Assembly: GCF_965363235.1 (NCBI RefSeq)
Contig: NC_134840.1
Span: 94,314,416 to 94,378,415, forward strand
From: Mytilus galloprovincialis
Lineage: Eukaryota > Mollusca > Bivalvia > Mytilida > Mytilidae
Direction of reading: 5' to 3'
Length of the DNA: 64,000 bases
Part shown: positions 3,051 through 43,705 of the stretch, piece by piece
Numbering within the stretch: position 1 is the first letter of the stretch
Layout: the number at the start of each line of letters is the position of its first letter
The notes under the pieces: model-generated
What the model saw: only the letters and a program-made list of their open reading frames with translations
What the model was told of the DNA's origin: nothing
The model's database searches: none
Position numbers and translations under genes: made by a program

Positions 3051-3193
3051 TAGTTGGATTGTTTTACATTGTCATATCGGGGCCTTTTATAGCTGACTAT
3101 GCGGTACGGTGACCTATAGTTGTTAATGTCTGTGCCATTCTGATCTTTTGTGGACAGTTGTCTCATTGGCAATCATACCACATCTTCTTTTTT
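3051..3193 (+). repeat. SINE-like mussel repeat, 3' part
   Basis: Contains GGGGCCTTTTATAGCTGAC and ends TTGTCTCATTGGCAATCATA followed by CCACATCTTC and a T run. Related tails occur at 21125-21190, 28622-28690 (minus), 32405-32540 (minus), 36716-36790 (minus), 38505-38560 (minus), 58630-58795 and 60540-60590. It abuts the gustatory-receptor-like exon fragment that starts at 3196 and probably interrupted that exon. Confidence 0.65.
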
Positions 3194-7443: not shown

Positions 7444-10400
7444 ATGTTCTTGTTCGGCTTAGTTTACAATATGTTAGAAACAGCACTGTGTAAAACTTGT
7501 ATTATGTGTTTTACTTATGGTTTAAGGAAGCTCGCGTGTCATGTTTTGAATTTTAGTAAGATTTTCGGAATCCTCTGGTTTTATCCATTTGAATTGCCCG
7601 GTAAAATTACCTGTTTTTCTTTTTATAATTCTTTTGCATGTATAATGATAAGCTGTCTGTTAATGTCTTATAAATTTTTTTTTTTTTTTTTTTTATAGTT
7701 TTTGAGGACTTGAACTTGCCATGATAAAGTTATGAAAAGTCAAGAGAGAACATTTTCCCGCCAAAATTTCAATGGCTAAAACAAGCACGGTGTCAGCAGA
7801 CCTATATATATTTTTTTTGCTTTTTTGCTTCCTTTATTAATCCCCTATCAATATATGCTATAGTGATTTATATATCTTAAGACTTCGTGTTTGATGAACC
7901 AGCTTAGCTAAAATTTATGTAAATAAATATCTGAGCGAACTCATACTTAAACATTTCGGCCGTTTCCTAAAATCAATTAAGGATAAAGGATTCTTGAGGG
8001 GCCGATATGAACCCTTTCAAGGTTTACAGGCAAAATGTGATCCTGAAATGAAAAATTTATCGTTATGAACATAAATATTAAATAACAACAACACAAAACT
8101 CCAAACAACCAATAATGTTTACAGTGCTTGGAACAGCATCAGATTCGCTCTCGCTCGTTTTTGTAACTCCATTTGAAATGACAATGACCGTAAAAGTGTT
8201 TGCTTATGCAATAAATATTATTGACACAATAGCATGGATATTTCCAGTTATATTCTTTTTGCTTCTCAGTTCAATCCTAAAAGATGACTTAGAGACATTC
8301 AACAGCTTTCTCTACAAGCAAACTAAGGATAACTGTGGTAAAATTGTAAAAGACCTTACTAAGCTTCGGACAGTACACTTAGAACTATGTAAAACTATCA
8401 GTATATTGGATAACTGTTTCAGTTGGCTTTTGTTTACTTGGTTTGTGCTGAACATTGCAAATGGCTGTTTTATAGCATTTGTACTTCTTAACGAATCATA
8501 TGATAAGTTTGGTACAGCAATGTTGGTGTTTTGGCTCATTTCCAGTTGTGTTTATATAGGCGTCAGCTCTGTCTCAGCCTCCATTCTTCACCAGAAGGTA
8601 ATTTTATGTCTATGATAATAAACGAAGACATTTTTTTATACGGTGAACGAGTAAATTTATATATTTTTATAAGCGGATTTAATAAAACAAAATGTCATTC
8701 GACTAATGATATTGAATCAAACTACACAATAGTTCACGTAATGATAAAAAAAAATAAGAATAACCAAGATACAAATTCAAAATGTTTTCCCGTTTCTCTG
8801 GTTTTTATCACGTGATTAGAAAGAAAATGAAGTGTTGTTACTCTCTCAACAAAAATATGGATTTCGGTTAGTTATACAGGAGATTTTGGAGTAAGATTTC
8901 AACAACTGTAAATATTATACTTTTTGAGCTTATTGGCTAAATTTCGGAGATCTTGAACCCATATTAGAACTTTTTGATAACAACAAAACTATTATTTTCA
9001 CTGAGACCTGTCCTGTATACCCTGGGGGATAAACAGTGTATATATTGAAAACTGTTCATTAAACATTGAATGAAAGTGGACTTTGGACTATAGTAAAATC
9101 AGCTGTTTTATAGTAAACTTGACCTATTCACCTATAAGAACAACCAATCATATAAAAAAATGTCGATGAGCGATACGTCGAGGTTGATTAAAGAGAGCCG
9201 AAGAATAGTTGACGCTTCCAATGATGTAAATCTGAACTCCGGCACATTGCTTAACATGATTTTGGAAATAGTTACGGGTATCGACTCTACAATGAGACGA
9301 ATGGAAACAAGTATGGAGAAGCGCCTTGATGATTTGAAACAGGATTTCTTAACGGTGTCAGCTAGGGTTAGAACATTAGAAAACCAGGCGAGCGATTTCA
9401 ACAAAAAGCTGTCAGACTGCGAGACTAGCTGCCAAGGTGTTAGCAATCTTTTCGATCAGGTATCTGGACAAGTAAAAACTAACAGACGTAATATAAACAA
9501 TCAGGATACGAGAATTAAGAAACTCGAAGACAACACCATCGTCCGACCGGGTGTTCCACCAGTCATCAATTCAAAGGAAATTGAGTCCTTAAAGGCAGCC
9601 ATTCTTGACTTGCAATGCAGGTCAATGAAAAACAATCTGATCTTTACGGGATTGCATAGAGTTCCGGGTGAAGATACGGAAGAGCTTTTGCGATCTTTTC
9701 TATACGATGAGCTGAGGATCGACTACAGGATCGAATTCGGCAATGTCCATCGATTCCGAACAAAGGGGGACAACAGAAGAGCACCGATAGTTGCAAGATT
9801 CCTATATCACCGTGATCTGGAATATGTTTTAGCAAATGCTACCAGACTAAAAGGTAGACCATATGGAATACGGGAGCAATTTCCTCATGAAATTGAACAA
9901 AAGCGGAAGGAACTGTATCCGGTGTTAAAACAGGCCAAACAGCAAAATAGACAAGCCTCTCTTGTGCGTGATAGGCTATACATAGACAATCAGCTCTACA
10001 TTCCTGACAGGGTACTAGAGGACACTAGAACGGAGCATACTGGCTCTTCATCAACAAACCATGACACGAGCCCAAAAGGGTCTTATTCTAGTGATACCCC
10101 TCCTAGCAAAAGACAGCGACAGGGACCGTCTCCTGGCCCACCGCACACAGATGATTCACCAAATTCTGGCAGATAGGGGAATGGTGCAAGAGGACAACCT
10201 CAAAAGAAATCGAAAAATTATGAAACTGTGAATAAGAAATATACAATTAACAATGATAGTTTAAATATTTGTTTCTTAAATGTTTGTGGACTTAAGAAAA
10301 GACTATTGTCTCCTGATTTCATTGACATTTTGCTTGAACATGATATCTGTATTTTTGTTGAAACGATGTTAACTGATTTAGATAATTTAAACTTACCAGA

Positions 10401-13400
10401 CGATTATATTTATGTCACAAAAAATAGAAAAAAATTTAAAAAAGCATCAGGTGGAATAGTTGTTATTTATAGAAAGAGTTTAGAAAAAGAGTTGAATTTC
10501 TATAATACTGAGAGTCAATTTGTTTTATGGTTTAAAATTTCGAAATCAATTTTGTCACTTAATTCAGATGTAATTTTTGGTTGTGTTTATGTACCACCTG
10601 AAAATTCTAAGTATTCTACTATAGAAGCTTTTGAAGAATTGGAAAATGAATTGAATATCCTTACAAACACTGAAAATTGTTATGTTGCCCTAGTTGGCGA
10701 TTTTAACTCAAAAACTGGGTCTTTACCCGATTATATTATACCTGATGAGTCAGTTGTTAGTATGTTTGATTTAGATTGTGATGCTGATATATTAGAGTAT
10801 TTGTATGATTATGAGAATCTGACTCGAAACAAAATCACCTTACAAAGAGTGTCTCAGTGTACATGTAGACCTAATAAGTATGGTCATAAACTGTTAGAGT
10901 TGTGCAGAAAAAATAATTTATACATTGCGAATTCAAGAGTTGGATCAGATAAAGATATTGGGGAGAAAACATGTAACGATTCAAGTGTTGTTGATTATTT
11001 AATTATTTCATCAATGCTCTTCCCTTTGATTGTTTATTTTGAAATTGCTGACTTTATACCGTTATATTCTGATTGTCATTCTTTTATAAATTTTAGACTT
11101 CAGGCCACATTTAGTAAATCAGATTCAATTGTTATCAACAATAGAAATGATAAAACTTTTGTCAGGTGGAAAAGTGAACAGAAATCTGAATACGTTGATC
11201 GAATTCACAATGATCCCGAAGGTATTTTGACCACTGTTATGAATAAACTGGACGAATTGTCCGTAAATAATGATGCAACTCAAAATGATATAAACAATAT
11301 AGTTTTAGATATCAGCAAAAATTTTAAAGATGCGGCAGCCGAAACGTTTGGGAAAGTAAATAAACATAAACATTTTTACAAACATGAAAATTCAAAACCT
11401 TGGTTTAATAGAAAATGCTCGATGAGTAGAAAAAAATTTCATAAAGCTCGAAAGAGATATAGTTTTTTGAAAAATGCTGAAAACAGAAGTAAAATGAGAC
11501 AAGCTAGTAAAGAACATAAAATAACATTAAATAAATCTTTTGCAGACTATCAACAGAGAGCTGCTGATGAGTTGCGTAACATTTCTAAAAAGGATACAAA
11601 AGCTCTATGGAAAATCCTTAATAATCTAAATGATAGTAAAAAAAAAGATAACAATGACGATATATCTCTAAAAGCATTGTATGATCATTTTAAAATACTT
11701 AATGAAACTGTTGAGACAGAAAATGATTTCGAACAAGATTTGGAATTTGATACTCTATCAGACGATGTTGAGTTATTTTTAAACAGTCCAGTAACAGAAG
11801 ATGAAATTAAAAAAGTTGTTTCAAACTTAAAAAATGGCAAAGCTTCAGGTAGTGATGAAATTTTAAATGAGTATATAAAGAATACAATTGACGATTTAAT
11901 GCCAATTTATGTTAAGCTATTCAATTTGATTTTAGATACTGGAATTGTTCCAGACAGTTGGTCTAATGGATTCATGATTACTATATTTAAAAATAAAGGA
12001 TCAAGATCTGATCCCGAAATGTACAGAGGAATCACTTTGAATTCATGCTTTAGTAAAACTTTTTCTGCTATGTTGAATTACAGGTTAAATAATTATGCAG
12101 ATCACGTAGACCTGATTTCAAAGTCACAAGCAGGTTTTCGTAGAGGATTCTCTACTGTTGACAATATATTTGTATTGTATTCGTTAATTACTATATATTT
12201 TTCATTTGGTAAGAAGCTATTTTGCACTTTTATAGACTTTAAAAGCGCTTTTGACACTGTATGGAGGCCAGGATTGTGGCAAAAAATGCAAAAATCAAAC
12301 ATTAAAGGTAAACTATTTAATGTGATATATAATATGTATCAAAATATAAAAACATGTGTCAAGAAAGGAAATGAATTTTCAGAGTTTTTTATATCTCATA
12401 CAGGAGTAAAACAAGGTGAAAATCTATCACCTTTTTTATTTTCTTTGTTTCTAAATGATTTAGAAAGTTATTTTGTGGAAAATAATATAGAAAGTCTAAA
12501 TAATATTTCAAAGCTGTGCTTGGAATCATTAGAAATGTATGTTAAATTGTTTATTATACTGTACGCAGATGATACTGCGCTATTGTCTGAAAGTGCAGAA
12601 GGATTACAAAAAACCCTTGTATGTTTTGAAGAATATTGTAAAAAATGGAAGCTTAAGATTAACACAAGCAAAACCAAAGCAGTGATTTTTAGTAAAAGGA
12701 AAGTAAAAAGAAATCAGAATTTTATGATATATGGTGAAAAAATTGAAATAGTTGATTCCTACTGCTACCTTGGTGTACTTTTCAATTACAACGGTAGCTT
12801 TTGTACAGCACGAAAAAAACTTCTTGTTCAAGCACAGAAGTCTTTGTATGCTCTATACCGAAAAATAAAAAATATATGTATTCCCGTCGATTTGCAGCTA
12901 AAACTTTTTGACTCATTGGTTAGTCCTGTTTTATTATATGCTTCAGAGGTATGGGGATTTGAAAATAAAGAAAGCATTGAGAGAATACACCTTCAATTTT
13001 GCAAAAACATTTTGAAATTAAGAAGCAGTACACCAAATTATATGGTGTATGGGGAACTCGGAAGATTCCCTTTGGAAACCATTATTAAACGTAAAATGGT
13101 GTTGTTTTGGAATAACTTGTTATCGGAAAATAACAAGTTATCTTCCATTATGTATAAATTAATGCTCAAATTACATTTTCAAAACCCCGCAAAATTTAAA
13201 TGGATTACGTACGTTAAATCCATATTTGACGAAAATGGAATTAGTTTTATTTGGCAAAATCAACTTCCATTGGATAAACTGGGATTAAAGAACATTATTT
13301 CACAAAAACTGAATGATCAATTCATCCAACATTGGTTTTCACAAATGAATAACTCTTCAAGAGGTGCATTTTATTCATTTTATAAAGAGGAATTTCGTTT

Positions 13401-16400
13401 GGAAACCTATTTGATAAAGTTGAAGCTGTGTGACAGGATTTATATGGCAAAACTCAGATGTTCAAATTTAAAAATTCCTGTAGAAACGGGAAGATGGTCC
13501 GGAATTCCAAAAAATGCACGAATTTGTCATCTTTGTGGAAATGGAATAGGAGATGAATTTCATTATTTTTTTAAATGTCAAAAACAGGAAATAAAACTGC
13601 TTAGAAATAAATATATTCCACAATATTATACTGCAAATCCAACGGAGTACAAATTGAAACAGCTTTTAACATTTTGTCATGTAGAACTTTACAAAAACTT
13701 AGCAATATTTTTAAAAATTCTTACACGATACTTGTGATTTATGTTGGTTTTTAGTTGAAAGTTATGGTAGTTTGTAAATTGACATTTGCTATATTTTCCC
13801 ATGTATGTAGCATTATTATGTTTAGTGTGAATGTATTGAGTATAAACATGTGTATACGTGTATATATGATGTCCTCTTGTACACCTATGTGTCTGAGGTT
13901 TATTAATAAAGTATTGTCTATTGTCTAAAGATTACATCATATTCGCTATAAAAAAAAACAGGTTCGAAATAGGTTTGTTATATTAAATACGGGTGAAATG
14001 TGTTTATCAAATCTATCATAAAAAGACTTCCAATCAATTAAGGAAGTGTCTTCGCTAGCCGAGGATTACGATTCGATTCCCTTCTCTCCACGGGTCTTTA
14101 AATTAATTCGCAATTCGTTATTAAAGTTTAAAAAAAATGCGAATTAGATGAAATATTAGTCCATCATATCCCATCCCATCCCATCATAATTTTTACGGTG
14201 ATGCTGTTGATAGAGCTAGTTGATAAAGAATCTTATTTCTAAGATTATACTAGAAATTAAACTTAAGATGCATTGAAATGTCTCTAGTATCTTGCACTAA
14301 CTGCGAGTACTCATAGATCCGTATTTTCGAGTTTTGTTTTGATGTCGTTTTTATTTTTTTTGTCTTTTGTTTTTGTGCTTTGTGTTGATCGGGTGATTAA
14401 AACAGTTCGTTCTTTAATTTCGTTGATACACCGCTCTCGGGTGAAAGGAGAGATTGTCTGCTCACAAAAATATGATTAACCTCATCACATACTGAGCATG
14501 TAATTCAATGGTTGCAGTAATGTGTTGCTCGCCGTCTGACATATTTGTTTTTCATTCATTGTTATATGATTCGTTTTTGAAAGTCGTACCTAAACTCATA
14601 TTGTTCACATGTTTGACCTTTGCAATCGTATCGTGTCTCTTTAATTTTTATCGGCATGTTTGATTCTCTTTTTTTACAATCAAGTGAGGATACAAAATCC
14701 TGTTTTGAAATGTTGACCGAATTTGTAAACAACACTCTATATGTGTGCTTTTATTTCTTGCAGGCTCATGCACCATTAGAGTACCTTTACGACATAGACG
14801 TTAATGACATCAAACCGGAAGATCAGCCTCAGGTATGATATTTTTTTAAATACGTTGGTTGCAAAGAAATGCCGTGATATATTAAATGATCATGACATGA
14901 AATATTGAGTTAGGGAAACGAACTTAGCATAAAAAAAATAAAAAAAATGAAATAACAGTATTACACAAGGCCGTAACTACCCTTGAGGCAAGTGAGGCAA
15001 TTGCCTCACTAAAATTTCGACACTAATTTTTTTTTTAAACATATATATAAATATAATAATCGTTTGTTGTTCTGTCTCAACCTTAACTTCTATAACTTGT
15101 CATCACTCCTTTTAAACTATTCTTCCTGGATATAACTCAGCATCTCAACGGGTGATGTTTCTCGATTACATTAACCTAGTAACGATAATCATCAGGGATC
15201 TCTAGTTAAAAACAGGCTCTTGCAGAAAAAGGAAAAGTGACACTGAAGGTAAAGAAGGAATAATTCTAGTAAACTAGTTTTTTTTTTTGTGAACAGAATC
15301 TGAGTATTGCATATAACTTCATTAGAACAATCCAAAAACGATAAGTAGACTGACAAATCAAGTACTGGTCTTCGGAAAGGGGCAGTCCTGTCTGCGTATT
15401 CATTTCTCCGTTTCACCAACTTTTGACAAATCAAGTACTGGGCATCGCAAGGGGACAGTCCTGTCTGCGTATTCATTTCATGAACTTTAATCTTTCTCTT
15501 TACAGATAAATAAAATATAAATAATATGAAACATGTATGGATTAGTTTTTATCCATGTTTCTTTAACCTTAAAAATTGAAAGAATATCCCATATTCCAGT
15601 TTGATATTATTGAGGAATGGTAGAACCTTTAACACAGGATTTTGTCTTTACTTATTCGGGACTACGGAATTTCGTTTCTTTATATTCGGGGTTTCGGAAT
15701 CGAACACCCCAACCCCCAACCCTAAATTTATAGATTCTGGAACTAAAATACCACCAACTATTTCCAGAAATAATTTGAAATTACGGACCTACATGTAAAC
15801 GTCAAAAACTCCATTCCAATTCCCCTGTACCCATATCATATATACTTATTCTAGATAGAATCATATACATATATCTTATCTCATTATATCCCTAGTTTGT
15901 CTACTCTTTGTCAGCGTAAAAGCGAGTTTAATATGTTGTAACTGCGACTGTATGGTGGTGCTTACAGGAAAGCTTAATTTCCTTTTGCAAACAAAACTGT
16001 TACTACCGATGCTGCTACCGAATTGTTGATGGAGAAGGAATTGGAAGAAGACATTGATCATTGTGTTGATGATGGTGATGATAATGTGCTACCTTTAGAA
16101 ACACTGACTACCCTGAAACGACTGAAAACTTGGAAAAGAGCATGCATGAGTGGCGAGAGATTGTGCGGTCTTGCCATGCTCCCTTCATCGCGATAAGGAT
16201 ATCAGCAGACCAAATTATGATTCTGAAACGATTTGACTGAACCGGCCATAGCAAACTCTGACTGAATCGATGTTTGTTCTATGTTCTGGCAGCAGATTCA
16301 AATCAGTAATATTTGGATGATTATCTAACACACAAATTAAATAAAGTTGTTAAAAATTTGGTGTAAGTAAAAGTCTTAAAATATGAAAAATTTATATAAA

Positions 16401-27000: not shown

Positions 27001-30000
27001 ACCTGAACGGACGCACAGACGAACGGACGGACGGGCGCACGAACGGAGCCACAGACCAGAAAACATAATGACCCTCTACTATTGTAGGTAGGGCAAAACA
27101 AGGAACCAATTTTATATTAAGCCAATGCAAGTCAATAAATAAAAGTATGAGACAGACTATATAGTAATATGTTTATTTCAATAGTACAAGCAGATGGGAG
27201 TTATAAACGATGGATTCCGAATACTAATTTTGATTATGCGTACAATTGGGATTCCGGGAAACCACCATGTGGCGACACCATAGCTGTGTTTAGTGATGAC
27301 AGTCCTTCTGTGTACATGCAGATGAACACAACTCTAAAAGAACTGGTAAGACCTAATAGAAAAGAATGGATATAGGGTATCCATGAGTTAAAATCAGAAC
27401 ATACAAAGCTAAAACACATAAAGCAAAAAAACAGTGCTTTAATTGCATCTCTTCTTCTTCTCAAAGTCACAGAGAGGCCTTTAACACAGAGCAAACACAC
27501 GAATCTCATTGCAAGTGTTTAGACGGTCACGGGCACCTGTTTTGAGCGGAATTCTTGCAGACTAAAAACCACGCCACAGCTGTAAATTACAGAGCAAAGC
27601 CAATGAGTAATATAAAAAATGAAGTGTCTGTTTTTGACTATTTATAGTTTTTATTTAACGCTACAAAAATGTATATACAAATTATCCTCAAAATGACGAC
27701 AACATAAGCAAATAAAGAAAACAAACCATCTTAGGCGATGCTTTAAATATTATTATTTGTTTCTCTCGTTATTTTATGGAACAAATCGTGAACAATAGAG
27801 TTTGACCAAACTAAATAGACATTAAGATAGATATTCTAAATGACTTTTCATGTCACAAGCCTGTTTTTCACAGAGATTACCATCAACGGATATAACTCTG
27901 ATACTGGACAACGACTTCGTTCTTGGATTTACAGATGTCCCGGACAACAACCCAAGCTGTCTCAGTAACGGACAAGGTAAGCGGCATTCAGATCGGTTTA
28001 GTCCAATTAGTGAATTCATACTTTCATGCAAAACGTTTACTTTGCTTTAGACAACGGAAAACGTATGAATACTTGACAATATAGTAAGTAAGGAAGTAAG
28101 TAAATTATTTTTTATAGTGACATGTGTAAATATGTACAGATTATAAATATACAATATATGATAAATATTAATACACCCGGCCCAATGGACCTATAAGTCA
28201 CCTCAAATGAAATTAAGTAATTTTAAAACAATATATCACGTTCTTCAAAATAACAAATTATTCATGAAATTATCTTTTTGTTGACGAAAGTTAACCTTTA
28301 ATTAATTTAAAAATAAAAATATATAGATATTAAGCTATTTGTAAACAAAATTTCGTCTATTAGAATATGCCTGTACAATGTATTTGGCTAGTTTTCGAGT
28401 ATGGCTAATATTTAAAAAAAAATAAGTTTTTCATTAATGTTCATAGAAACAAAGGAAGAAGTTAACAAAAGTTCACCAAAAACATGTTCTCGTATATCAG
28501 AATAGAATGTACAGTCTAGTAAAAAATGAGTTTCAGTTTCTGACACGTCTGCAGTGCATATATATACGAACATTCATTCATTATCATAAACACAGTTTTA
28601 TAAGCTTTCTTGGTGCAATATAAACAAGAAGATGAGGTATTATTGCCTATGAGACAACTCTCTACAAGAGACAAAATTACACAGAGATTTACAACTAAAG
28701 GTTTACTTCAATGAATGTCATTAATAAACTGTTATGAAGATTTGACTATATAAGAAAATGTTAAAGAATATATATAGAAATATGGCTTATGAGGAAAACT
28801 GTGGAATAACATCTGGGTGTCGATCAGTTATCTGTTTCGTTGTGTTGCTCTCTCATTTACGTACAGCCATTTATTATTGCTATTCAATACTGGTTTTTCA
28901 CAGCTTGAAAAATAAAACTTGAAACAAATACCTTTTTACAGAAGTCCATTTTAACAAGACTTATCCATCGGACTGGTTTGATCCCAAGAACTGGTGTTCA
29001 TCTACTACAGAAACAGGAAACTGTACGGACATGGTCCTGGAATCGGAAATGGTTCCTTGCTCGTATGATAATGTTGTCTTCCCTAAAGACAGTTCTTTTT
29101 TTGTAAACGTAGAAGCTGAGATGAAGATAGTGGTTAACACTCTGAAAATATCAGGAAAGGTAACAGCTACGAATATATCTAGCTTACTTGAATAATTATG
29201 CGCCCTCTGGTGGCTGATCACGTATTGACATGTTATTGTAGCAATCAGAGCTTGCTAAAATCACTACAAGAGGGTCCGCAACCCGAGGACTGATAGTGTT
29301 ATAGAGGGGTGTTATATACATCATGAGCTACTGTAGGTTTTGATATAATTCTTTTCACTTTATTACATATGCAATCAAAGTAAATGATATACTAAGTTCA
29401 GATATGTTCGGAACACAGAATGTGATATATATTTAGTTTTAGATCAGATCATTATACTATCAAATATTAAATATATTATGCAGAACTGATACAAATGAAA
29501 AACATTGAAGTGGTGAGTTTTAATTCTAGCGCTCGTTGAAGGTGCGTCCGACTCCGGTCTTTTATACTAAGATTGCCAATCTTCCTGCCGAAGAATGGGG
29601 TTCTCTCCATGTACCCATGCGCCATATACATTGTAACAAAGAGTGCTATAATTAACAGTGGCGTTAGACATAACTAACTAATCAATAAAATCACTCAGAT
29701 GAAATTCAGAAACAAAATTGCTACTCTTTTCCGGAATATTTTGGTGTCATTAAATAGGTTAATAGGGAAAATCTAACCATGCTTAATATGTGCTTATTGT
29801 ATTATTAATCTAGCTTATCATTTTTCTTTCTTTTAGGCTTTAAGTACAAACACTTTATCTTCGTTCCTAAAGACTGATATGGGTACTCAGATGTTTCCGA
29901 AGCCCCACACTGGAGAAAGATCAAAAATCAAACTTTCCAGACGACCGTGTAATAACCCACTAGGGTGTATTTGTGGAAACGACTTACCTGAGGTAAGAAA

Positions 30001-30626
30001 TGGATCATTTCACATATTACTTAAAACCTTAACTACGGTACAAAAAAAAAACCCACTGACAATCAGTTGGAAAAGGGAAAAAAATGTCTAATTATTGTTG
30101 TATTGTATTGTCTTCACTGCCTTTCAATCAATGAAAGCTATATATTTTGTATATTGTACATGTCGTCACACTGATTTTTTGCTCGACTAGCACAAAAGCA
30201 CACGTAAATCACACGTGAGGCTTTGCATTTTTTGCAATAATTTGATTTCCGTTGTGCGGTGTTAGTTTTCAGGTGTCTGATGTCGGGTGTTCATCGATTT
30301 GATCGTCGTAAACCATTTTCTAAGATCTTCTCTGAAACTACTAAACTAAATTCAACCAAACTTGAACAAGTTAATGATTCTATATTTTTTTTACTTATTT
30401 CAACAGATTTTACAAAGAATCTGCAGTATACAGAAACCATATTGTGCAAAGCAAGCCTGTAAACATCCAATTCTCCTTACTGGTGGTTGCTGTGAAATAT
30501 GTGGTAAGTTACTCGATCTGTCTGTATTTGGGAACTTTTAGGTTATTACTCAGAATGTTTACGTTTCTAAAAAATGTTTGTAAACTATGAAGAAAACAGG
30601 GAGAAAATAGTTATAAAGATAACCAT

Positions 30627-30667
<41 letters not shown>

Positions 30668-33600
30668 AAAATGACTAGATATATGTTTCACGTGCGAAAT
30701 TCCATCTTGAATTAAGAGTTATTGTGAGGTTTTGCTCGGGTGAAATTTCTAATGTGACGTTGAAATGAAGATTAGCACCGTTCCAGTGCTTTTCAAGATT
30801 TGTCAAGAAAGTGCATTTTCTGCTAGAAGAAAAGGAAAAGTAAAGAACGTGTGGGCTATCTGATCGTGAGGCAGCAAACTAACAACCACTGGACAATTAC
30901 GCCTGAACATTTAATTCGTGTAATAAATTAAATTATACACATTTACAACAGGCGCTAAACTGACAGCTGAATATGGTACTGGTTTCAACTTTGACACGTT
31001 AAGAAACGGTCTACAGAGGAATCAACTCGATGGAAAGGAGGACTTCAAAGATGTAAAATTTGTCGTTTCCAGGACTTCGAATGATAAAATACAAATATCT
31101 CTGACAGACAAACATGGCGGTCTACAGAGTATACATGTAGCCACACTGATGAAGGCAGATATTGATCAAGGTTTGTTGCTAAAAGCTTCGTATCTCTTTT
31201 TTTATTCCGGACTGTTTTTAAATGCAAATGCTTTTTTGATATACTACACTAATTCATTAGTTCATATCAGGAAACACGTTTCCCTAATAGACACATATTT
31301 TTCTTGAAGCGTTGTGTGGCTAATTATTTTAATCTTGCTGACCAGTTTTGCTCATGCATTTTGCGGCTTAGGACGAATGCTTCTTTTTATAATTTTATTG
31401 CCAAATATTTAGGTTACTAGCATAAAAAATAAAGCGATGACTGAAGCTCATTCTGTATTCTGCGCTCTTGATATTAAAAATAATGCGCATGATCAACACG
31501 TTCACAACCCTGTAAAATTATAAAAAGTAAGCATTCATTTCTTAAAATTACACTGTTATGCTGGAACTATGAAATTGAGAATTCATAATATATGTTTTTT
31601 GTTAATTTAAAAATTTTTTTTTTTTATTTAAACACTTTCATGGATAACACGTGCAGTCGTCGCTCTTGTATTTTATACGGAAATAAAATATGATATTGGA
31701 GTGCCTCGCGAATACTGTCAGCCAATCAAAACTACGGATTATAATGAAACATACATGTAATATAACTATATGCACATTCAAGACGATAACATGTAAATAA
31801 CCAGGTTAAGACTGAAATCAATATAACACTTCGTATTGCGATTATCACTTCCAAATATATGTTTTGCTATGATATGCTCTTTTTATAGATATTTTGTCCG
31901 GTGGATTTAAGTACAGTCTTCGCAAAATAGCAATGGAGCAATCAGGACCTGCCATTCATACTCCAAGTGCAGGTGCACGAACAGGTATACACATAATACA
32001 TTTGAAGATTGGAATAAGGAGCTGCACTACTTCGTGTACAGCTACAGATGACGAGTCCTATGTTACTAAAGTGTACAATTTTATAGTTGCATAATAAGAG
32101 AGGTCTTAAAAGGAATGTACGGAACATATCATTTTCGTTTACCAAAATTTCTTTCATGTTTTTTTACGCTTTAACTTTCATTTCAAAACATGTGAAGGGA
32201 TTGCTTGGCTTCTATTTGGTATTCTAGAGATCCTTTTTGGGGGGTATTTATCTAACTCTGCTTAAGACTTTTGGTTCTTTGTGCATGGACTTCCAATATG
32301 TATGAATCATAGATATTTCAGAAAACATCACTAGTAGCAATCAAATTCTACCTGTAGCGTAATGAAATAGGAGACTCAATGTGTGTACGCATGTTGATTG
32401 ATGCTTATATAGATATAGGAAGATGTGGTATGAGTTTCCAATGAGACAACTCTCCATCCAAATAATAATTTAGAAAAGTAAACCATTATATGTCAATGTA
32501 CGGCCTCACACCGAACAACAAGCTTTAAAGGGCCCCAAAACTAACCATTAAGAATACTTATTTGCAAATTCTTGTTCTTTGTTGTCTCTACGGTTTTTAA
32601 GTTTATTAATAATATAACGTTTTTAATCATTTTTAGGAGGCAGCGGAGGAAATGGAGGAGAAACTGCTGGTATAGTGATTGGTGTGTTGGTTGTTATTGG
32701 TTTTGTATTTGCAGGGCTTTTCTTTTTGTACAGAAGGAGAAGGTAACCCATGGTTACGAAGGCCCTCTATTAAAAAGGGGTCATTTTTTATATATATATA
32801 TATTGAAATTGAGAATTTAAATGGAAATGTGTCAAAGAGACAAAACCCGACCACAGAGCCGGAAACAGCACAAGGCCATCAATTAACACAGCGAGAAAAT
32901 CATAGTCTTATTTTTGCGATTTTGAGCTAAAAATAATGAACGGTTGCAAAAAAAATATAATTAGAATAAAACTAAGGTTATCGTGCTTCCTTTCAAGAAA
33001 CAAAAGGCTCATAAATGATAACATCAAATCAAAAATCCAAATCGATTAATTATAAAGCTCTGATTAATATGCTTCAGGGATAAGATATGCGTCATGATCA
33101 GTAATATAATTTCTTATTGAAAAAAAATAATCTTGAAATGTGAATCTTGCCTTCTTTAGATATATAATCATATAATAATATTAATGTTACATGTATGTTG
33201 TAGTATTCCAGAAATTTCTAGATTCAAGGTGTTTGACAGAATTTCTTTCCGACGACCGAAAGTAAAGAGACCACACGTTGAAGTACCGCCATTCTTACGA
33301 TTTTCGTTTAGATCTGAGCAGGCTGAAAATGTTGGACCATCTCATCAAGGCTTTGAAAATCCAATATTCGGAAATTCTCCTATCGGCGTAAGTTATTCGA
33401 TTTGTTGGTAATAATAATAAATAATTTAATGCGAATGTGATGTTTTCAGGGCCGTAGCGTAATGGAGGCAAATGAGGCAAATGCCTCACTTTTGAAACGA
33501 CAACCAAACTTTCGAAGTGTGTTTTTTTTTTAATTATGTATTTTACATTATCAATATGCGAGTTTCCAGTTTCAAATTATCTACCGGCACACTACATACA

Positions 33601-36600
33601 GTGTCCAGTCTGCAGCAGCGATTGCAGCTTTTACCATAGTGGTGACGGTAAAAAGGTAAGTGTTCCGAATACAAATAAAAATAAAAAAATTGAAACAAAT
33701 CTTAATGTCGTTACAAAACTGGTTGAAGACAGGTTCTTTAAAGAGAAAAAAAGATGAAAAAGGTAACTCATGAGTATTTTAAAACACCCCCTATAAGTAT
33801 GTTGGCTTATTACTTTCCGCTTGGTTTATTTTTGAATCGATAACGCTATTGCTACCAATGTTTACACTATCAACTCACTGAACAACAAATGCTAATCGAT
33901 AAAATAATTCATTGACCAAAAAATTAAATAATAATTATTCATAATTTAAAATTTAAACAAAATCATGAAGCGCCTTTTCTATGGAAGTCTTTGATGTATA
34001 AGGCAATTCATGATTTTTATTTATCTTTAATAAAAGTATGAAATATATTTTTGGTATTGTTTGGAAATATTTGTTTTGTGTTTCTTTTTCTGATTATGGT
34101 CAGCATTGTCTGGTTGTATGCTAGCGTGTGCCGTTGATTCTAGTGCGGTAGGTCGTGGGTTCGAACCCTGGTAGGTCAAACCAATGACTTAAAAATTGGT
34201 AGAACAATGCGTCCAGGTAGGTTGACATATCTTCCAGCGGAATGTTTACAGAGAATGCTTATAACATGTTCTCGTCTTCTAGAAGCTTATAACTTGCTGC
34301 TGGACATAAATATGTAAGCCTCAAATCTATGTCCGGCCTCAAATCTATGTCCTTCCACCAAATCTATGTCCTTTTTAATATTGCGTCATAGACGTTCCAA
34401 ATCTATGTCCTGTATTGTCTCACATCTATGTCCTTTATTTACTCAAATCTATGGCCATTTTTGGCTCAAATCTATGTCCTTTCATTGACGTAAAACAAAT
34501 CAAAACGTCATCAAGCAAACAATGAAAAGTTTAGAATTACAGGTGTAAGTACGGCCTTTAACACGGAGCATTAAATCACACCGAACAAATTTGAACAAGT
34601 GGTTTATATGACAAAAGCAAGGTTAACATTTTATCTATTAATACACATGGTTTAAAATTGCTTTATATTTTTTTTTTTTTTTTAAACTGGTGGAAAATCT
34701 GTTATGAATAGTGGACTGATGGAATATTTTCAAATACGTCAACTAGAGATTTATCCTCTTGAAATGTTTTCTGACAATTATCGGGATATCTTTACTTACT
34801 CCTACTTTTTGGGAATATTTATAATTCAAAACAAATCCAGCCATGAACAACGGGACTGCAGTGTTTACATCTGGTTTCTGGAGAGAAGGAATTTGCCGAA
34901 ACATAAAGAATGATTCTTTTCGGGGAAAGATTTTTGTTATTAAAGACATAATTACAAGTTTTACATTTGAACTAAATAGATATCAGCTAATACCAAACAA
35001 TTGATATATGCTTTATTGTGATTTACAAATATTTTAATTAAAAATATAAGGCACGTAACTTTTATTTTTAGCAATTCAGAATGATTTTATAGATATTTAA
35101 AGTAACATATGATAGATAAAGTGGTATGAATGTCAATTTAACAGCAATATGAAAAAAAATTAGAGACAATTGAAGTACGCTGAAGTTGCATACAAATAGT
35201 CATTCTTTACTGTCTTTTTAGTAAAACAAAGTATGTGTAGTTTAATTATTGAAGACGGCATACAATAATAACACACACATGTAAAGATTTAAACTACAAA
35301 CATGGCGAAATTACTTAATAAAACAAAAATCATACAAGACCGTACTTATAAAACAAAAATCATACAAGACCGTACTTAAAAAACAATATTTTAAATCAGG
35401 GACTTTCTTAGTCCCTGTTTAAATGCAAGCGAAATAATCTAGCTAGATTTACTTATACTTGGGCTCTTGTACACACAGGGAGAACACATACCAATAAATT
35501 AATATTGAACTATGGGATATGACTTAATAAAAAAACAACCTATAAGGCCGAAATTATTAGACGGGCATAAATTTGCGCATGGCTGAAAAAGAATAAAAAC
35601 ATTACACAGTTTTAAAGCCTTATCTTTTATAACGGACATAGATTTGAGAAAAACGTCACGATTAAAAATCGGTCACAGATTTGAGGACAAATTATTTTTT
35701 AAGGACATAGATTTGTGAATGATGTCATGATAAAAAATCGGCCACAGATTTGAGGCCAAATAATTTATTATGGACATAGATTAGCGATTGACGTCACGAT
35801 GGGGCATAGATTTGAGAAACGGACATAGATTTGAGGTCGTACACAGATCTGAGGTTTACAAATATATACATGTATGTACATAAGAACTAGTGTTGAAGCT
35901 TTTCGATAGTACAGGTCACAGGACAATCGAAAAGTTTTGGTTGACCAACAGAGATTAATTTTAATATTTACTTATAGGCTAGCTAGCTAATAAAAATAAC
36001 GCATTTCTGTTATATATATATATATATTTTTTTTTATTATAAATAGTAATGTTGAAATGGTGTAATTTTTGATTTTATAAAAATGGATAATTACCACGTG
36101 AATCACTGTTTACATTTACTCGGAAGAAATTGTTCCGAGTATTCCTTATTTTGATTGGTCAATTTGTTACCTGGATACAGGACGCTCTTATATATTTCTT
36201 TGTTTCGGGATTCGCGGTACATTTGAAATTTTTCATTGAAATTATTTACCCTCCCACCCGCCGCATACAGCTGTGTTAGTTATGAATTTTAATGTATTTT
36301 GTGTACTTATTTATAAGATGTGCTTGTGTATACTGTGGCTAGCTCATGTGTTTATTCGAGCTGTTTGGATGAATATATTTATCATTTCTAATGGCTAGAC
36401 GCTATATTTGCGCTTTAACATTAACTTTACATGTTATATGTGACTGTCAGTGGTACAGTCGAGTGTTTGTCCTGTGCTGTGAAATATATCTGTTTGTCTT
36501 GTGTATATATTGTGCCGTAATAAAATTGAGTAACTTTGATTTCTTTTGTGAGAAGCCTGGTAATTAGCTAGCTTCTCTCGTTTCAGGCACCCGAACCCCC

Positions 36601-39600
36601 TAAAGAAAGGCTCAAAAAATTTTCGCATCGCTCCGCTCGGCTAATTGCCTCACTTTAAATGAACATGCGCTACGGCCTTGGTTTTGTGTAGATGTTTTAG
36701 ACATATGTTTGTATGTATAAAAGGAAGTTGTTGTATGATTGTCAATGAGACAACTCTCCACAAGAGACCAAAATGACACGGAATTTAAAAGCTATAGATC
36801 ATCGTGTAGGGACGTTAAGCACGATATTGCGTCTCAAATGGTAACGTCAAATTTTTACGTTTTACGGCGATTACCGATTATTTGGGATAAGTTTTGTATT
36901 TAACTTGCATTTTTTTTGTTTTGCACATCAATGTGGATACGTTTTATAATGTTTTGTTGTACTGAATATGCATTGAATATTTCCCAATGAAGGTAACGTA
37001 AGCAACAAACAACAAAATATATCGTGTTTGGGTAATGCATATCTTTATGAAATGAAAAGATATATACGGAATGATGAGTGTCAATGAGACTCTCTACCAG
37101 AGATCAATTGACATAAAACGTATTTAAAAAAAAAAGTGCAATGTTTTCCCATTTAGATCCGAAAAGGAGGAGGATATATATTTTGCTTTAATATAAAAAT
37201 TTGTCGAGAATAACAAGATAAACGGGTCTTGCTTATAAAATTCACTATACTTTCTTTAATAGCGGTACAATTAGATTATGAAATGAAACGATTGTCAGAA
37301 AAAAAAGGTTAATTATAATTCATCTCATATGTTTACAAGCTTTGTATGATGTGGAGAGGTATATAGCCACGCTTTAGGCCCAATTTTATTTTCACTTTCA
37401 ATTCTATACACATGAATCTTATTGCAGAGAAATAAAAAAAAAATTGCAGTCAGTTTACGCTTCCCAAATTTGAAAATTTGATAAAGATGATTTGTTATCC
37501 TCTTGTGATACAAAACTTTTTCACAACTTGAGAACCTCATCTAAATGAACAAACCCAGTCATCTGAATTTTTTTTATGATGCTTTGTGGTCTTGTTGTTA
37601 GTATCTGACTATCAAGAAAATTCTATCTAAGGAACTATATACAGATGATCCACCATAAACAGCGTACCCCGAATCGGCAACGTTGAAAACGTACGAAAAT
37701 CGTCCAGTGGACAAACTTGCAAGACATTTCATTTCTTTGAAAACGAAGTCGTTTTGACTACGCAAGTTATCAAAAAGTATGTAGCTGTTTTGTAAAGTTA
37801 AAGCACAATTACGGAAAAGGACTATTTAGCATGCAACTAATCTAAATTTTTAATAAATAACGTCGCAAATGACAATTTATTTGTAAAAAAACGGCGAAAT
37901 CCGACATCGGACATCTTGCAAGACATTTGCCAGAAGCCGTTGCATTTTTATATGTAGTGTGAGTGCTCCAAAAATTCGATTTTGATATGGTCTACGTATG
38001 CACATATGCGAGCCGAATTTACACAAACGAAATATCATGTAATCTTATATTTTAAAACCTATACATTTCGATAACCTAACATCTTCCAAAATCTGACCAA
38101 TATGAACACTATTTGTTTTTGCCAAAAAATAGCGTTGGTCGTACCAGAAACACATATCCAGTAATATTGTTATACTTTATATATGAAGCATATCATTCAT
38201 TCGAATTTTCGTGGATATAACACTAATTTGAAGAACACAAACACCCCTGCTAAAATGATTATACGTATAGTCTGTTACGTCTGCATGACACGCATATTTT
38301 TGACGTTTTGTCAATATGTTGTCCTTATTTTAGACTAAAGTAAAATGTGATAAAATAATTTCTACTTTTTTTCGGAATTGTATTTACCTGTCTAGTCTAT
38401 GGATATAAGTTTTATAAAACTTAACCGTTATGGTTTTATAGAAAAGCTGTTTATTAGTGTGGACTGGTTGATTACACGGTATGGACGCAATAACGTGCGT
38501 AACATCAGGGCCTTCAAAAATGAGCAAAGCGCATACCATATAGTCAGCTATAAATGGTCACCTCAGGTGACGCATAGGGATCACTTCTATAGTATGTTGT
38601 CGTCTGTCGTCAAGGCCGTAGCGCATGTTCATTTAAAGTGAGGCAATTAGCCGAGCGGAGCGAGGCGAAAATTTTTTGAGCCTTTCTTTAGGGGGTTCGG
38701 GTGCCTGAAACGAGAGAAGCTAGCTAATTACCAGGCTTCTCACAAAAGAAATCAAAGTTACTCAATTTTATTACGGCACAATATATACACAAGACAAACA
38801 GATATATTTCACAGCACAGGACAAACACTCGACTGTACCACTGACAGTCACATATAACATGTAAAGTTAATGTTAAAGCGCAAATATAGCGTCTAGCCAT
38901 TAGAAATGATAAATATATTCATCCAAACAGCTCGAATAAACACATGAGCTAGCCACAGTATACACAAGCACATCTTATAAATAAGTACACAAAATACATT
39001 AAAATTCATAACTAACACAGCTGTATGCGGCGGGTGGGAGGGTAAATAATTTCAATGAAAAATTTCAAATGTACCGCGAATCCCGAAACAAAGAAATATA
39101 TAAGAGCGTCCTGTATCCAGGTAACAAATTGACCAATCAAAATAAGGAATACTCGGAACAATTTCTTCCGAGTAAATGTAAACAGTGATTCACGTGGTAA
39201 TTATCCATTTTTATAAAATCAAAAATTACACCATTTCAACATTACTATTTATAATAAAAAAAAAATATATATATATATAACAGAAATGCGTTATTTTTAT
39301 TAGCTAGCTAGCCTATAAGTAAATATTAAAATTAATCTCTGTTGGTCAACCAAAACTTTTCGATTGTCCTGTGACCTGTACTATCGAAAAGCTTCAACAC
39401 TAGTTCTTATATATGTACATACATGTATATATTTGTAAACCTCAGATCTGTGTACGACCTCAAATCTATGTCCGTTTCTCAAATCTATGCCCCATCGTGA
39501 CGTCAATCGCTAATCTATGTCCATAATAAATTATTTGGCCTCAAATCTGTGGCCGATTTTTTATCATGACATCATTCACAAATCTATGTCCTTAAAAAAT

Positions 39601-42600
39601 AATTTGTCCTCAAATCTGTGACCGATTTTTAATCGTGACGTTTTTCTCAAATCTATGTCCGTTATAAAAGATAAGGCTTTAAAACTGTGTAATGTTTTTA
39701 TTCTTTTTCAGCCATGCGCAAATTTATGCCCGTCTAATAATTTCGGCCTTATAGGTTGTTTTTTTATTAAGTCATATCCCATAGTTCAATATTAATTTAT
39801 TGGTATGTGTTCTCCCTGTGTGTACAAGAGCCCAAGTATAAGTAAATCTAGCTAGATTATTTCGCTTGTATTTAAACAGGGACTAAGAAAGTCCCTGATT
39901 TAAAATATTGTTTTTTAAGTACGGTCTTGTATGATTTTTGTTTTATAAGTACGGTCTTGTATGATTTTTGTTTTATTAAGTAATTTCGCCATGTTTGTAG
40001 TTTAAATCTTTACATGTGTGTGTTATTATTGTATGCCGTCTTCAATAATTAAACTACACATACTTTGTTTTACTAAAAAGACAGTAAAGAATGACTATTT
40101 GTATGCAACTTCAGCGTACTTCAATTGTCTCTAATTTTTTTTCATATTGCTGTTAAATTGACATTCATACCACTTTATCTATCATATGTTACTTTAAATA
40201 TCTATAAAATCATTCTGAATTGCTAAAAATAAAAGTTACGTGCCTTATATTTTTAATTAAAATATTTGTAAATCACAATAAAGCATATATCAATTGTTTG
40301 GTATTAGCTGATATCTATTTAGTTCAAATGTAAAACTTGTAATTATGTCTTTAAAACAAAAATCTTTCCCCGAAAAGAATCATTCTTTATGTTTCGGCAA
40401 ATTCCTTCTCTCCAGAAACCAGATGTAAACACTGCAGTCCCGTTGTTCATGGCTGGATTTGTTTTGAATTATAAATATTCCCAAAAAGTAGGAGTAAGTA
40501 AAGATATCCCGATAATTGTCAGAAAACATTTCAAGAGGATAAATCTCTAGTTGACGTATTTGAAAATATTCCATCAGTCCACTATTCATAACAGATTTTC
40601 CACCAGTTTAAAAAAAAAAAAAATATATAAAGCAATTTTAAACCATGTGTATTAATAGATAAAATGTTAACCTTGCTTTTGTCATATAAACCACTTGTTC
40701 AAATTTGTTCGGTGTGATTTAATGCTCCGTGTTAAAGGCCGTACTTACACCTGTAATTCTAAACTTTTCATTGTTTGCTTGATGACGTTTTGATTTGTTT
40801 TACGTCAATGAAAGGACATAGATTTGAGCCAAAAATGGCCATAGATTTGAGTAAATAAAGGACATAGATGTGAGACAATACAGGACATAGATTTGGAACG
40901 TCTATGACGCAATATTAAAAAGGACATAGATTTGGTGGAAGGACATAGATTTGAGGCCGGACATAGATTTGAGGCTTACATATTTATGTCCAGCAGCAAG
41001 TTATAAGCTTCTAGAAGACGAGAACATGTTATAAGCATTCTCTGTAAACATTCCGCTGGAAGATATGTCAACCTACCTGGACGCATTGTTCTACCAATTT
41101 TTAAGTCATTGGTTTGACCTACCAGGGTTCGAACCCACGACCTACCGCACTAGAATCAACGGCACACGCTAGCATACAACCAGACAATGCTGACCATAAT
41201 CAGAAAAAGAAACACAAAACAAATATTTCCAAACAATACCAAAAATATATTTCATACTTTTATTAAAGATAAATAAAAATCATGAATTGCCTTATACATC
41301 AAAGACTTCCATAGAAAAGGCGCTTCATGATTTTGTTTAAATTTTAAATTATGAATAATTATTATTTAATTTTTTGGTCAATGAATTATTTTATCGATTA
41401 GCATTTGTTGTTCAGTGAGTTGATAGTGTAAACATTGGTAGCAATAGCGTTATCGATTCAAAAATAAACCAAGCGGAAAGTAATAAGCCAACATACTTAT
41501 AGGGGGTGTTTTAAAATACTCATGAGTTACCTTTTTCATCTTTTTTTCTCTTTAAAGAACCTGTCTTCAACCAGTTTTGTAACGACATTAAGATTTGTTT
41601 CAATTTTTTTATTTTTATTTGTATTCGGAACACTTACCTTTTTACCGTCACCACTATGGTAAAAGCTGCAATCGCTGCTGCAGACTGGACACTGTATGTA
41701 GTGTGCCGGTAGATAATTTGAAACTGGAAACTCGCATATTGATAATGTAAAATACATAATTAAAAAAAAAACACACTTCGAAAGTTTGGTTGTCGTTTCA
41801 AAAGTGAGGCATTTGCCTCATTTGCCTCCATTACGCTACGGCCCTGGTCGTTGTCGTAAGTTGATACTTAGTCCGCACCTCGCATGAAAAAGCTTGAAAA
41901 AATCCGTTCCACCTGCAGGACATGAAATGTGTACCTATTATTTTGATTTTTTTTATGGCCCCGCAACGAAGTTGTCGGTGCCATATAGTTTTACCCTTGT
42001 CCGAAATTCCGAAATTCCATAATTCCATAATTCCGAAATTCCGTCATTCCGCAACAAAGCATTATACGGAGTTTGTTTCTAAACGCCTTCAGATATTGGA
42101 CTGATTTTTGGTATGTGAGTTAACCATGATGAGTTACAGATCAAGTTTAAGTTTCGTTCCGCTCCACAAAATTTTGCCGAAATTACGGGCTTTGGACTTT
42201 GAGAAATTGTTAAAAATCACACTTATACGGACTTTTTTCTAAACGCCTTCAGATATTGGGCTGATTATTTGTATGTAAGTTAACCATGATGAGTTACAGA
42301 TCAAGTTCTAGTTTCGTTCCGCTCCACTAAATTTTGCCAAAATTACGGGCTTTGGACTTTGAGAAATTGTTAAAAATCACACTTATACGGAGTTTTTTCT
42401 AAACGCCTTCAGATATTGGGCTGATTATTTGTATGTAAGTTAACCATGATGAGTTACAGATCAATTTTAAGTTTCGTTCCGCTCCACTAATTTTTGCCAA
42501 AATTACGGGCTTTGGACTTGAGAAATTGTTGAAAATCACAGTTATACGGACTTTTTTGTAAATGCCTTCAGATATTGGGCTGATTATTTGTACATGTATG

Positions 42601-43705
42601 TAAGTTAACCATGATGAATTACAGATCAAATTTAAGTTTCGTTCCGCTCCACTAAATTTTGCCGAAATTAAGGGCTTTGGACTTTGAGAAATTGTTGAAA
42701 ATCACAGTTATACAGACTTTTTTTCTAAACGCCTCCAGATTTTGAGCTGATTATTTGTATGTAAGTTAACCATGATGAGTTACAGATCAAGTTCTAGTTT
42801 CGTTCCGCTCCACTAAATTTTGCCAAAATTACGGGCTTTGGACTTTGAGAAATTGTTAAAAATCACACTTATACGGAGTTTTTTCTAAACGCCTTCAGAT
42901 ATTGGGCTGATTATTTGTATGTAAGTTAGCCATGATGAGTTACAGATCAATTTTAAGTTTCGTTCCGCTCCACTAATTTTTGCCGAAATTACGGGCTTTG
43001 GACTTGAGAAATTGTTGAAAATCACAGTGAGACTACAATCATGTGTTTATATTGAAATTGCAGATTTTTCAACTTTTTGGGACGGGGCCATTCGTGTCGC
43101 TTTGACACATCTAGTTTCAGATAAGTGATTTTCGAAAACCCTGTTTATTTTATACTTCGTATACATTTGCCTATCCTGAAAGAGTCTCAATTTTTGTTTT
43201 ATATGTGATAAAAACTTGAGATAAAAACGATAAATTTATAATGGTGTGACCTAAACATTTTATTTTATATGCAATTCAGGTAGATAAGCCAATGGATTTG
43301 GAACTGATGCCACCACCATTGGAAAGTGAAGAGCAACCTACATTTGATACATCCGGGTTCGATAATCCTCTTTATGATACATACATTCAGGTACCAGTCT
43401 TTGCATATATCTAAGTTTAGTTATGAGCTTGTCGGCCGTTTTTAAGACTGCTCCTTTTGTAAATTGAAAATTTCAAGAATTATTGGATTATGTCATCAAG
43501 ATTTATAAATTAGTTTGATTTCTGCGTATACCAATCTCAAAATGCTCGGTTTATTTAACGTTTCTGTATCGTTAGATCACTGTCTGATTTACAGTTATCT
43601 ATATTAAAACAGTATTAAATATTTCAGGAGTCACCATTCAGTGATGCTGCAACTATTGAAAACGAAGAACCAAGCAAAGAAAAATCGGGATTACCGGAAG
43701 ACTGA
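24038..43705 (+). CDS. amn: Amnionless (cubam receptor subunit), 12 exons
   Basis: Exons: 24038-24077, 27185-27345, 27874-27976, 28942-29159, 29837-29992, 30407-30503, 30952-31170, 31889-31984, 32637-32742, 33204-33387, 43280-43390, 43628-43705. All borders are GT-AG (AG acceptors, GT donors) and all phases agree, giving 522 residues; human AMN is about 450 and also has 12 exons. Order: signal peptide (MDVLSLLIFLVIL), the family start KRWIPNTNFDYAYNW, a second FDPKNW...VPCSYDNVVFP block, GCICGN (~220), a cysteine-rich CKHPILLTGGCCEICG module (~243-258), a Gly-rich juxtamembrane, one TM (~374-394) with a RRRR stop, then cytoplasmic FENPIF (449-454) and FDNPLY (487-492). Amnionless escorts cubilin to the apical membrane and its FxNPxF signals recruit endocytic adaptors. 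Intron 10 is 9.9 kb and full of transposons. Confidence 0.95.
24481..24713. repeat. inverted repeat in amn intron 1
   Basis: ATTTTCACTTATTCAATGTG and following bases (24481-24520) are inverted at 24681-24713. The arms are 33-40 bp with small differences. Probably a small MITE; the ends beyond the arms are not clear. Confidence 0.6.
25380..25590 (-). mobile_element. Penelope-like element 3' tail fragment
   Basis: On the minus strand it matches the segments downstream of the RT fragments at 59165-59545 and 63690-63830: a CCACATGTGG...GCACC-type stretch, then TTTTGGTGGGGTTCGTGCTG. No coding is left. It lies in amn intron 1. Confidence 0.6.
25981..26144. repeat. 164-bp near-perfect palindrome
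   Basis: The left arm 25981-26050 (CGATTATCAGATTATCTGCA...) and right arm 26073-26144 are inverted copies with few differences, separated by 22 bp reading TCTCGTTCGCTACGCTCACTCG. In a transcript it would fold into a single ~70-bp hairpin. It lies in amn intron 1. Confidence 0.8.
26806..27100 (-). repeat. TGCCCC/GGACGGACGG dispersed repeat
   Basis: Inverted copy of the family at 1596-2027, with AGTGCGAGTGGGGCATCCGTG on its minus strand and a GGACGGACGGGCG run on the plus strand. It ends about 85 bp upstream of amn exon 2. Confidence 0.75.
28050..28941 (+). other. amn intron 3, with SINE-like tail
   Basis: Non-coding. A minus-strand copy of the TTGTCTCATTGG repeat tail lies at about 28622-28690 (GAGACAACTCTCTACAAGAG). 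Nothing else was recognised. Confidence 0.55.
30633..30663 (+). repeat. (CA)n microsatellite
   Basis: An uninterrupted CA run of about 31 bp in amn intron 6. Confidence 0.95.
32405..32540 (-). repeat. SINE-like mussel repeat
   Basis: Contains GATGTGGTATGAGTTTCCAA, GAGACAACTCTCCATCC and CACCGAACAACAAGCTT...GGGCCCC, the reverse of the family at 58630-58795. It lies in amn intron 8. Confidence 0.7.
32805..32895 (+). repeat. GTGTCAAAGAGACA repeat family
   Basis: AATGGAAATGTGTCAAAGAG then ACAAAACCCGACCACAGAGC matches the family seen at 49362, 49985 (inverted) and 63834. It lies in amn intron 9. Confidence 0.65.
33536..33757 (+). other. 73-codon open frame inside hAT copy A
   Basis: Identical frame in copy B (41536-41757, minus). 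It encodes a CPVCSSDC cysteine cluster and, after GDGKK, meets a consensus-like donor AAG/GTAAGT. It may be an exon remnant carried by the element, or chance. No function is assigned. Confidence 0.25.
34125..34215 (+). repeat. tRNA-derived SINE-like segment
   Basis: Contains a perfect Pol III box B, GGTTCGAACCC, inside GTGGGTTCGAACCCTGG, with a weak box A-like GCTAGCGTGTGC about 40 bp upstream. The stems are imperfect, so it is not a functional tRNA. It is present in both hAT copies (inverted near 41085-41175), so it was inside the element before both inserted. Confidence 0.55.
34313..35860. mobile_element. nested element with TIRs of repeated AAATCTATGTCC words (in copy A)
   Basis: The left arm (34313-34490) has at least seven copies of (CTC)AAATCTATGTCC at irregular 15-40-bp spacing. 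The right arm (35630-35860) has about eight copies of the reverse complement GGACATAGATTTGAG. The outer ends TGTAAGCCTCAAATCTATG.../...GAGGTTTACA are inverted. A possible AATA duplication flanks it. No transposase was seen in the ~1.1-kb interior. The same element sits inside copy B (about 39433-40979). Confidence 0.7.
36686..38605 (+). other. spacer between the inverted hAT copies (amn intron 10)
   Basis: About 1.9 kb of single-copy-looking sequence with two SINE-like tail fragments (36716-36790 and 38505-38560, minus). No exon was recognised. Confidence 0.6.
38611..41846 (-). mobile_element. hAT-like element copy B, 3,236 bp, inverted relative to copy A
   Basis: Begins CAAGGCCGTAGCGCATG and ends TACGCTACGGCCCTG, flanked by GTCGT on both sides (38606-38610 and 41847-41851). 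It aligns with the reverse complement of copy A along its whole length with only scattered single-base and short indel differences. The different flanking duplication shows an independent insertion rather than a segmental inversion. Confidence 0.85.
41955..43115 (+). repeat. ATGGCCCCGCAACGAAG repeat with six ~162-bp tandem units
   Basis: Units begin near 42061, 42222, 42382, 42543, 42708 and 42869 (TATACGGA...TTTTTTCTAAACGCC) and share CCATGATGAGTTACAGATCA and TTTCGTTCCGCTCCACTAA. The array is preceded by a short AATTCCGAAATTCC satellite (42003-42050) and followed by GGGACGGGGCCATTCGTGTC. It lies in amn intron 10, about 165 bp upstream of exon 11. Confidence 0.85.

Follow-up and report, generated by a model that had tools for sequence, protein, structure and literature searches.

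Among hAT transposons, hAT5 elements are unusual in generating 5-bp target-site duplications, as described in passages of PMC9004415. The hAT elements treated in the relevant parts of PMC6004678 and PMC3517528 carry 8-bp duplications, and the labels "hAT-5" and "hAT5_DR" found there are only element names. Reinsertion of hAT elements at linked sites has also been published, for Ac and Tol2 (PMC2753552, in part). The locus described here can be compared with both systems. Within a 64,000-bp stretch of Mytilus galloprovincialis DNA (contig NC_134840.1, positions 94,314,416–94,378,415, forward strand), hereafter the window, two near-identical 3.23-kb elements, A and B, lie in opposite orientation inside what is predicted to be a single intron of the amnionless gene, amn. 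With a probability of about 0.82, they represent a single composite, non-autonomous hAT5-like transposon in two copies, one of them having arisen through a local hop. As with Ac/Ds and Tol2 (portions of PMC2753552), hAT copies appear to have moved to linked sites; what distinguishes the mussel locus is that only a genomic footprint is seen and that the distance is short, with a spacer of just 1930 bp.

Copy A occupies positions 33447–36680 of the window on the plus strand (3234 bp), and copy B occupies 38611–41846 on the minus strand (3236 bp), with both delimited by an inverted-arm search and alignment. Three stretches of the inverted arms (33447–34943 with 40350–41846, 34918–35882 with 39412–40376, and 36027–36680 with 38611–39264) are 99–100% complementary, and the weakest, a 173-nt stretch at 35862–36034/39256–39428, is still 96% complementary. 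Global alignment of A with the reverse complement of B yields three substitutions (0.09%) and three indels of 1, 4, and 1 bp. An earlier note on this DNA had thus delimited the two hAT-like copies exactly, and its claim of low end-to-end divergence is borne out by the count. Flank comparison likewise agrees with the different 5-bp duplications reported there, namely GTTTT around A (33442–33446 and 36681–36685) and GTCGT around B (38606–38610 and 41847–41851). The note had named identical flanks beyond the elements as the mark of a segmental inversion. No BLAST match was found in any of four comparisons: the left 1 kb of A against the right or the left 1 kb of B, the right 1 kb of A against the right 1 kb of B, and the left half of the spacer against its right half. 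Because the flanks are unrelated and the duplications differ, A and B represent two insertions rather than a segmental inverted duplication or a fold-back artefact.

The internal architecture of the two copies is that of a nest. Searches of the source assembly (1.385 Gb in 331 contigs) with the first kilobase of A gave at least 84 matching pieces, with the best 40 of 576 candidates scored, and the 20 best copies besides A and B were taken for comparison. All 20 match A from base 1 to about base 764–870, one of them (L028) in the left part only, and none of the 20 shows a match within the copy to A bases 871–2413 or 2614–3115; the locus of another, L029, has one weak 64-bp match to the first of these regions, kilobases away from the copy itself. 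The nearest relative among the 20 is L017, with a length of 1175 bp and 98.8% identity to the outer parts of A (95–98% per BLAST piece). When A is lined up with it, two clean insertions, termed X and Y, stand out. The 3.23-kb unit is, therefore, a non-autonomous outer transposon of ~1.2 kb with X and Y nested inside. Insert X spans 34314–35859 in A (plus strand, 1546 bp), possesses inverted ends, and is bordered on each side by AAATAT, while insert Y spans 36060–36565 (plus strand, 506 bp). In B, on the minus strand, X lies at 39435–40979 and Y at 38726–39231, as placed by the A/B alignment with borders from the L017 comparison. Two of the five open reading frames of at least 60 amino acids in A (73 and 69 amino acids) matched no Pfam family above the cut-off.

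Two of the four insert junctions of the composite, outer/X and Y/outer, were searched for throughout the assembly with up to three mismatches. The Y/outer pattern occurs in A and B only, and the outer/X pattern is exact at A and B only, with a single three-mismatch place on contig 2 (C2). Given that no other composite was found by this search, A and B most likely descend from a single ancestor in which both inserts were already present. The earlier note's phrase "independent insertion" thus stands in the sense of two separate events, each with its own duplication, unrelated flanks, and little divergence; the copies themselves are probably not independent in origin. Since a common composite ancestor is paired with different insertion sites, it is probable that a short hop from one copy produced the other.

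The spacing of the outer family's ends argues in the same direction. Exact 13-bp ends occur in the assembly 67 times (left) and 53 times (right), forming 37 left/right pairs within 8 kb, with one left end counted twice owing to adjacent right ends. The 67 left ends include two pairs whose members are no more than 41 kb apart, versus 0.13 such pairs expected at random. The left ends of A and B are 8.4 kb apart, a proximity for which 0.027 pairs would be expected. The second close pair, L025/L026 (C1:83574157-83614804), is also inverted, with its members 40.6 kb apart and 99.5–99.9% identical. The two members, at C1:83574157 and 83614792, have different duplications (CAAAC versus CAGTG), and when the two 7-kb loci are compared, similarity ends at the element ends (99.5% over 1287 bp).

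Several lines of evidence connect the outer family to hAT elements. The terminal inverted repeats, CAGGGCCGTAGCG and CAAGGCCGTAGCG, begin with a CAGGG-type sequence, which we take to be the hAT-type terminal consensus. An exact 5-bp duplication flanks 16 of the 21 outer copies with a recognizable right end, A and B included (14 of 19 without them), and mismatched pairings of left and right flanks, used as a control, give a 5-bp match in 1 of 420 cases. Moreover, one pair of exact 13-bp ends brackets a 3615-bp candidate autonomous relative at C13:9591240-9594854, where a 797-amino-acid open frame contains the PF05699 hAT dimerization domain (with the best 150 of 638 candidates scored); a 266-amino-acid fragment of it matches PF05699 at E 1.2e-9. 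A PDB sequence search with the same fragment returned one hit, an unrelated protein at E 0.86. In its terminal sequence, the C13 relative is 88% identical to the ends of A across 204 bp and 83% identical across 72 bp; within the coding-side stretch, one 40-bp piece is 82.5% identical to the outer part of A. Together, the end matches and the coding-side piece suggest that the outer element could be an internal deletion of a larger, C13-like element.

It is on these grounds, the 5-bp rule in the outer family, the hAT domain in its relative, and the rule published for hAT5, that the outer element is filed as a putative non-autonomous hAT5-like transposon. The likeness to hAT5 lies in the 5-bp duplications and in the C-terminal dimerization region encoded by the relative, and the difference lies in the non-autonomous nature of A and B. 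The earlier note's remark that a 5-bp duplication is unusual holds for hAT elements in general, but in the outer family it is the rule, as it is for hAT5 in the passages of PMC9004415 cited above. As a separate observation on the same family, an element at C14:19425763-19429131 seems to hold, between its two ends, a tandem run of about three units of ~1035 bp.

The following sequence of events would account for the pair. An outer element of ~1.2 kb, itself probably derived from a larger one by internal deletion, would first have been invaded by X and by Y, the latter as a solo repeat (discussed below). A hAT transposase supplied in trans may then have recognized the intact outer ends, and the whole 3.2-kb composite would have moved to a site at a distance of 1.9 kb, inserting there in reverse orientation, so that the amn intron came to hold two copies. 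Retention of the donor could be explained by replication-linked transposition or by repair from the sister or the homologue. The action of the enzyme, the timing, and any direction of the hop are what we infer from the arrangement. Polarization of the A/B differences against L017 (for the outer part) and ten relatives of X assigned the derived state to A at two sites and to B at another two, and gave no polarity for the last two. With derived sites on both copies, no direction is claimed for the hop, and neither copy is regarded as an unchanged parent.

That distribution of derived sites is among the points that weigh against the proposed history, and there are others. Five of the 21 outer copies have no exact 5-bp duplication, although one of these has a duplication of 6 bp, and the 21 were counted after leaving out L020, whose right end was not found. 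The candidate autonomous relative, which is known from its ends plus 801 bp of its coding part, has no matching 5-bp duplication (its flanks are CAATG and GTTAC); this mismatch, however, concerns a single copy, whose own duplication may have been lost. A more diverged composite would escape the two-junction, three-mismatch search, and there may have been a third donor, since lost. Finally, hops within the family are not always local, as another recent pair, L021/L022 (99.7% identical), is found on different chromosomes.

The host gene was recognized from three exon matches to PF14828 (Amnionless), all above the cut-off, on the plus strand of the window between 27202 and 30550 (27202–27357, 28938–29162, and 30407–30550); the third match passes a donor-like GTAAGT and reaches a TAG. 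Farther downstream, a frame that runs up to 33387, where GTAAGT follows, encodes FENPIF, and another, which starts at 43280 after CAG, encodes FDNPLY (predicted exon, 43280–43390, plus strand). Both junctions are in phase 0, delimiting a predicted GT...AG intron of 9892 bp at 33388–43279 on the plus strand. The C-terminal exons had no Pfam match and are assigned by splice phase and by the FxNPx[F/Y] motif, which we take to be a mark of the amnionless tail. A scan of 25000–64000 for F.NP.[FY] gave four matches on the plus strand and none on the minus strand, and those at 26360 and 43131 (the latter in a 27-amino-acid frame) are taken as chance; even if an exon at 43131 were real, A and B would still lie in one intron. 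Both copies are accordingly predicted to sit within a single amn intron, as the earlier note had proposed. Together they make up 6470 bp of it, and the intron would measure 3412 bp if both copies and one duplication for each were taken out. No exon is evident in the spacer, where the longest plus-strand frame is 71 amino acids and most of the sequence belongs to Z, a dispersed repeat of ~1.7 kb at 36811–38506. Identified by genome search, Z was found in 39 places besides itself among the best 40 candidates scored (at least 45 matching pieces, the best 96–97% identical) and seemingly has short, imperfect inverted ends. The same predicted intron also holds, at 42062–43026, just before the next exon, a tandem array of six copies of a ~160-bp unit.

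The local hop must be weighed against other ways in which such a pair could have come about. The near-perfect inverted arms are what a segmental inverted duplication or a fold-back error of assembly would leave behind, but with a separate 5-bp duplication for each copy, six differences between the arms, and unrelated flanks in all four comparisons, this explanation is given next to no credence. Two insertions from a third composite elsewhere, since lost or missing from the assembly, would accommodate the polarized differences on both copies, and cut-and-paste elements can leave the donor site. Such a history is nonetheless considered unlikely, given that the junction search revealed no third composite, bar the three-mismatch place on C2, and that chance insertions only 8.4 kb from each other would be improbable (the expectation of 0.027 being for all 67 left ends). 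It is also conceivable that A and B belong to different homologues and were brought together by a collapsed assembly. The very low divergence fits young, possibly still polymorphic insertions, and each of the flank probes (33100–33446 and 43150–43480) matches once in the assembly, which therefore offers no second haplotype to compare. A mosaic of this kind would, however, need a haplotype switch inside the 1.9-kb spacer, and it is regarded as very unlikely; as both sites are linked anyway, the short hop would stand regardless.

A different kind of alternative is that the pair has been kept for its effect, as a functional locus for long double-stranded RNA (dsRNA) in which a 3.2-kb hairpin of the amn pre-mRNA would be edited, diced, or able to alter splicing. 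Both arms would be present in one transcript of the predicted intron, with uninterrupted complementary runs of 1222, 269, 485, 454, 149, 596, and 53 nt, and effects of dsRNA, such as the changes in editing, siRNA production, or splicing raised in the earlier note, are possible. The low divergence, however, means little time for selection to show, and retention for function is judged highly improbable. Inverted Alu pairs offer the nearest comparison. According to passages of a review on these (PMC11263572), pairing across flanking introns promotes circular RNA, whereas pairing within an intron favors linear splicing, which also speaks against a functional hairpin here. The mussel pair resembles inverted Alu pairs, as far as they are described there, in having complementary arms in one intron that could potentially form dsRNA, and it differs in the far greater length and near-perfection of its arms. 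With both arms in one predicted intron and no exon evident between them, exon circularization is disfavored, and the circular RNA suggested in the earlier note would not be expected. It would likewise be a long shot to suppose that the pair makes one amn allele a long-hairpin locus in which up to 3.2 kb of near-perfect dsRNA would be edited or diced to yield small RNAs, with the outer, X, and Y families silenced in trans and the output of amn, an endocytic co-receptor gene, changed in carriers.

Of the two inserts within the composite transposon, X belongs to a dispersed family (at least 94 matching pieces, the best 95% identical) and carries many CTCAAATCTATGTCC repeats in its subterminal regions. 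Its insertion sites are AT-rich, and as a target duplication is unclear in its relatives, the superfamily of X is left unnamed. Y matches another dispersed family at 98–99% identity (at least 71 matching pieces), eight loci of which were compared. Five of these (L047, L048, L050, L051, and L052) close with a 229-bp piece and, after it, the complete 506-bp unit, or B1-A2-B2. Another, L054, has a partial 5′ piece (part of A1), an internal part, and the 229-bp piece (B1), and the remaining two (L049 and L053) consist of single or broken Y units. In none of the eight were A1 and A2 seen together.

The split direct repeat layout A1...B1-A2-B2 is that of Ngaro-like elements, for which a GDSL-like frame is also described, in passages of PMC9210276. 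The Y loci share with them the split direct repeats, while A and B differ in holding only one 506-bp A-B unit. In L051, an upstream frame has weak similarity to PF13472 (SGNH/GDSL hydrolase), scoring E 1.3e-5 and 26.2 bits against a curated cut-off of 32.9. A second frame of the same locus (71–424) shows by eye an HSFRRGG...HGDW pattern, which we take to resemble that of a tyrosine recombinase; Pfam gave no match there. In view of the layout of its relatives, the likeliest reading of Y in A and B is a solo A-B repeat from a Ngaro-like retroelement. No target-site duplication was seen around Y in A when aligned to L017. A ribozyme-bearing or Penelope-like repeat was also considered for Y and dropped, as an Rfam scan of 33000–42300 gave no matches at E up to 1 and the split-repeat layout suits Ngaro better.

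Elsewhere in the window, two long open frames of 359 and 1186 amino acids occupy 9097–13737; with a reverse transcriptase domain in the second (RVT_1, E 2.8e-34), this region is possibly an intact retroelement of the kind without long terminal repeats (non-LTR-like). A frame at 8082–8615 weakly resembles gustatory and trehalose receptor families (PF06151, E 5.3e-6; PF08395, E 2.4e-5, the latter below the cut-off).

The inverted pair in the amn intron is real and well explained, and it reflects ordinary transposon behavior rather than a new kind of system. Its value is that nature has cleanly recorded a hAT hop over a short range, with X and Y, as shared cargo, marking the two copies like a barcode. 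The pair further implies that the outer ends still worked with ~2 kb of foreign cargo between them, at ~2.5 to 2.75 times the usual length of the element. Finally, it provides a natural setting in which to see whether a gene is disturbed when a long inverted pair lies in one of its introns.

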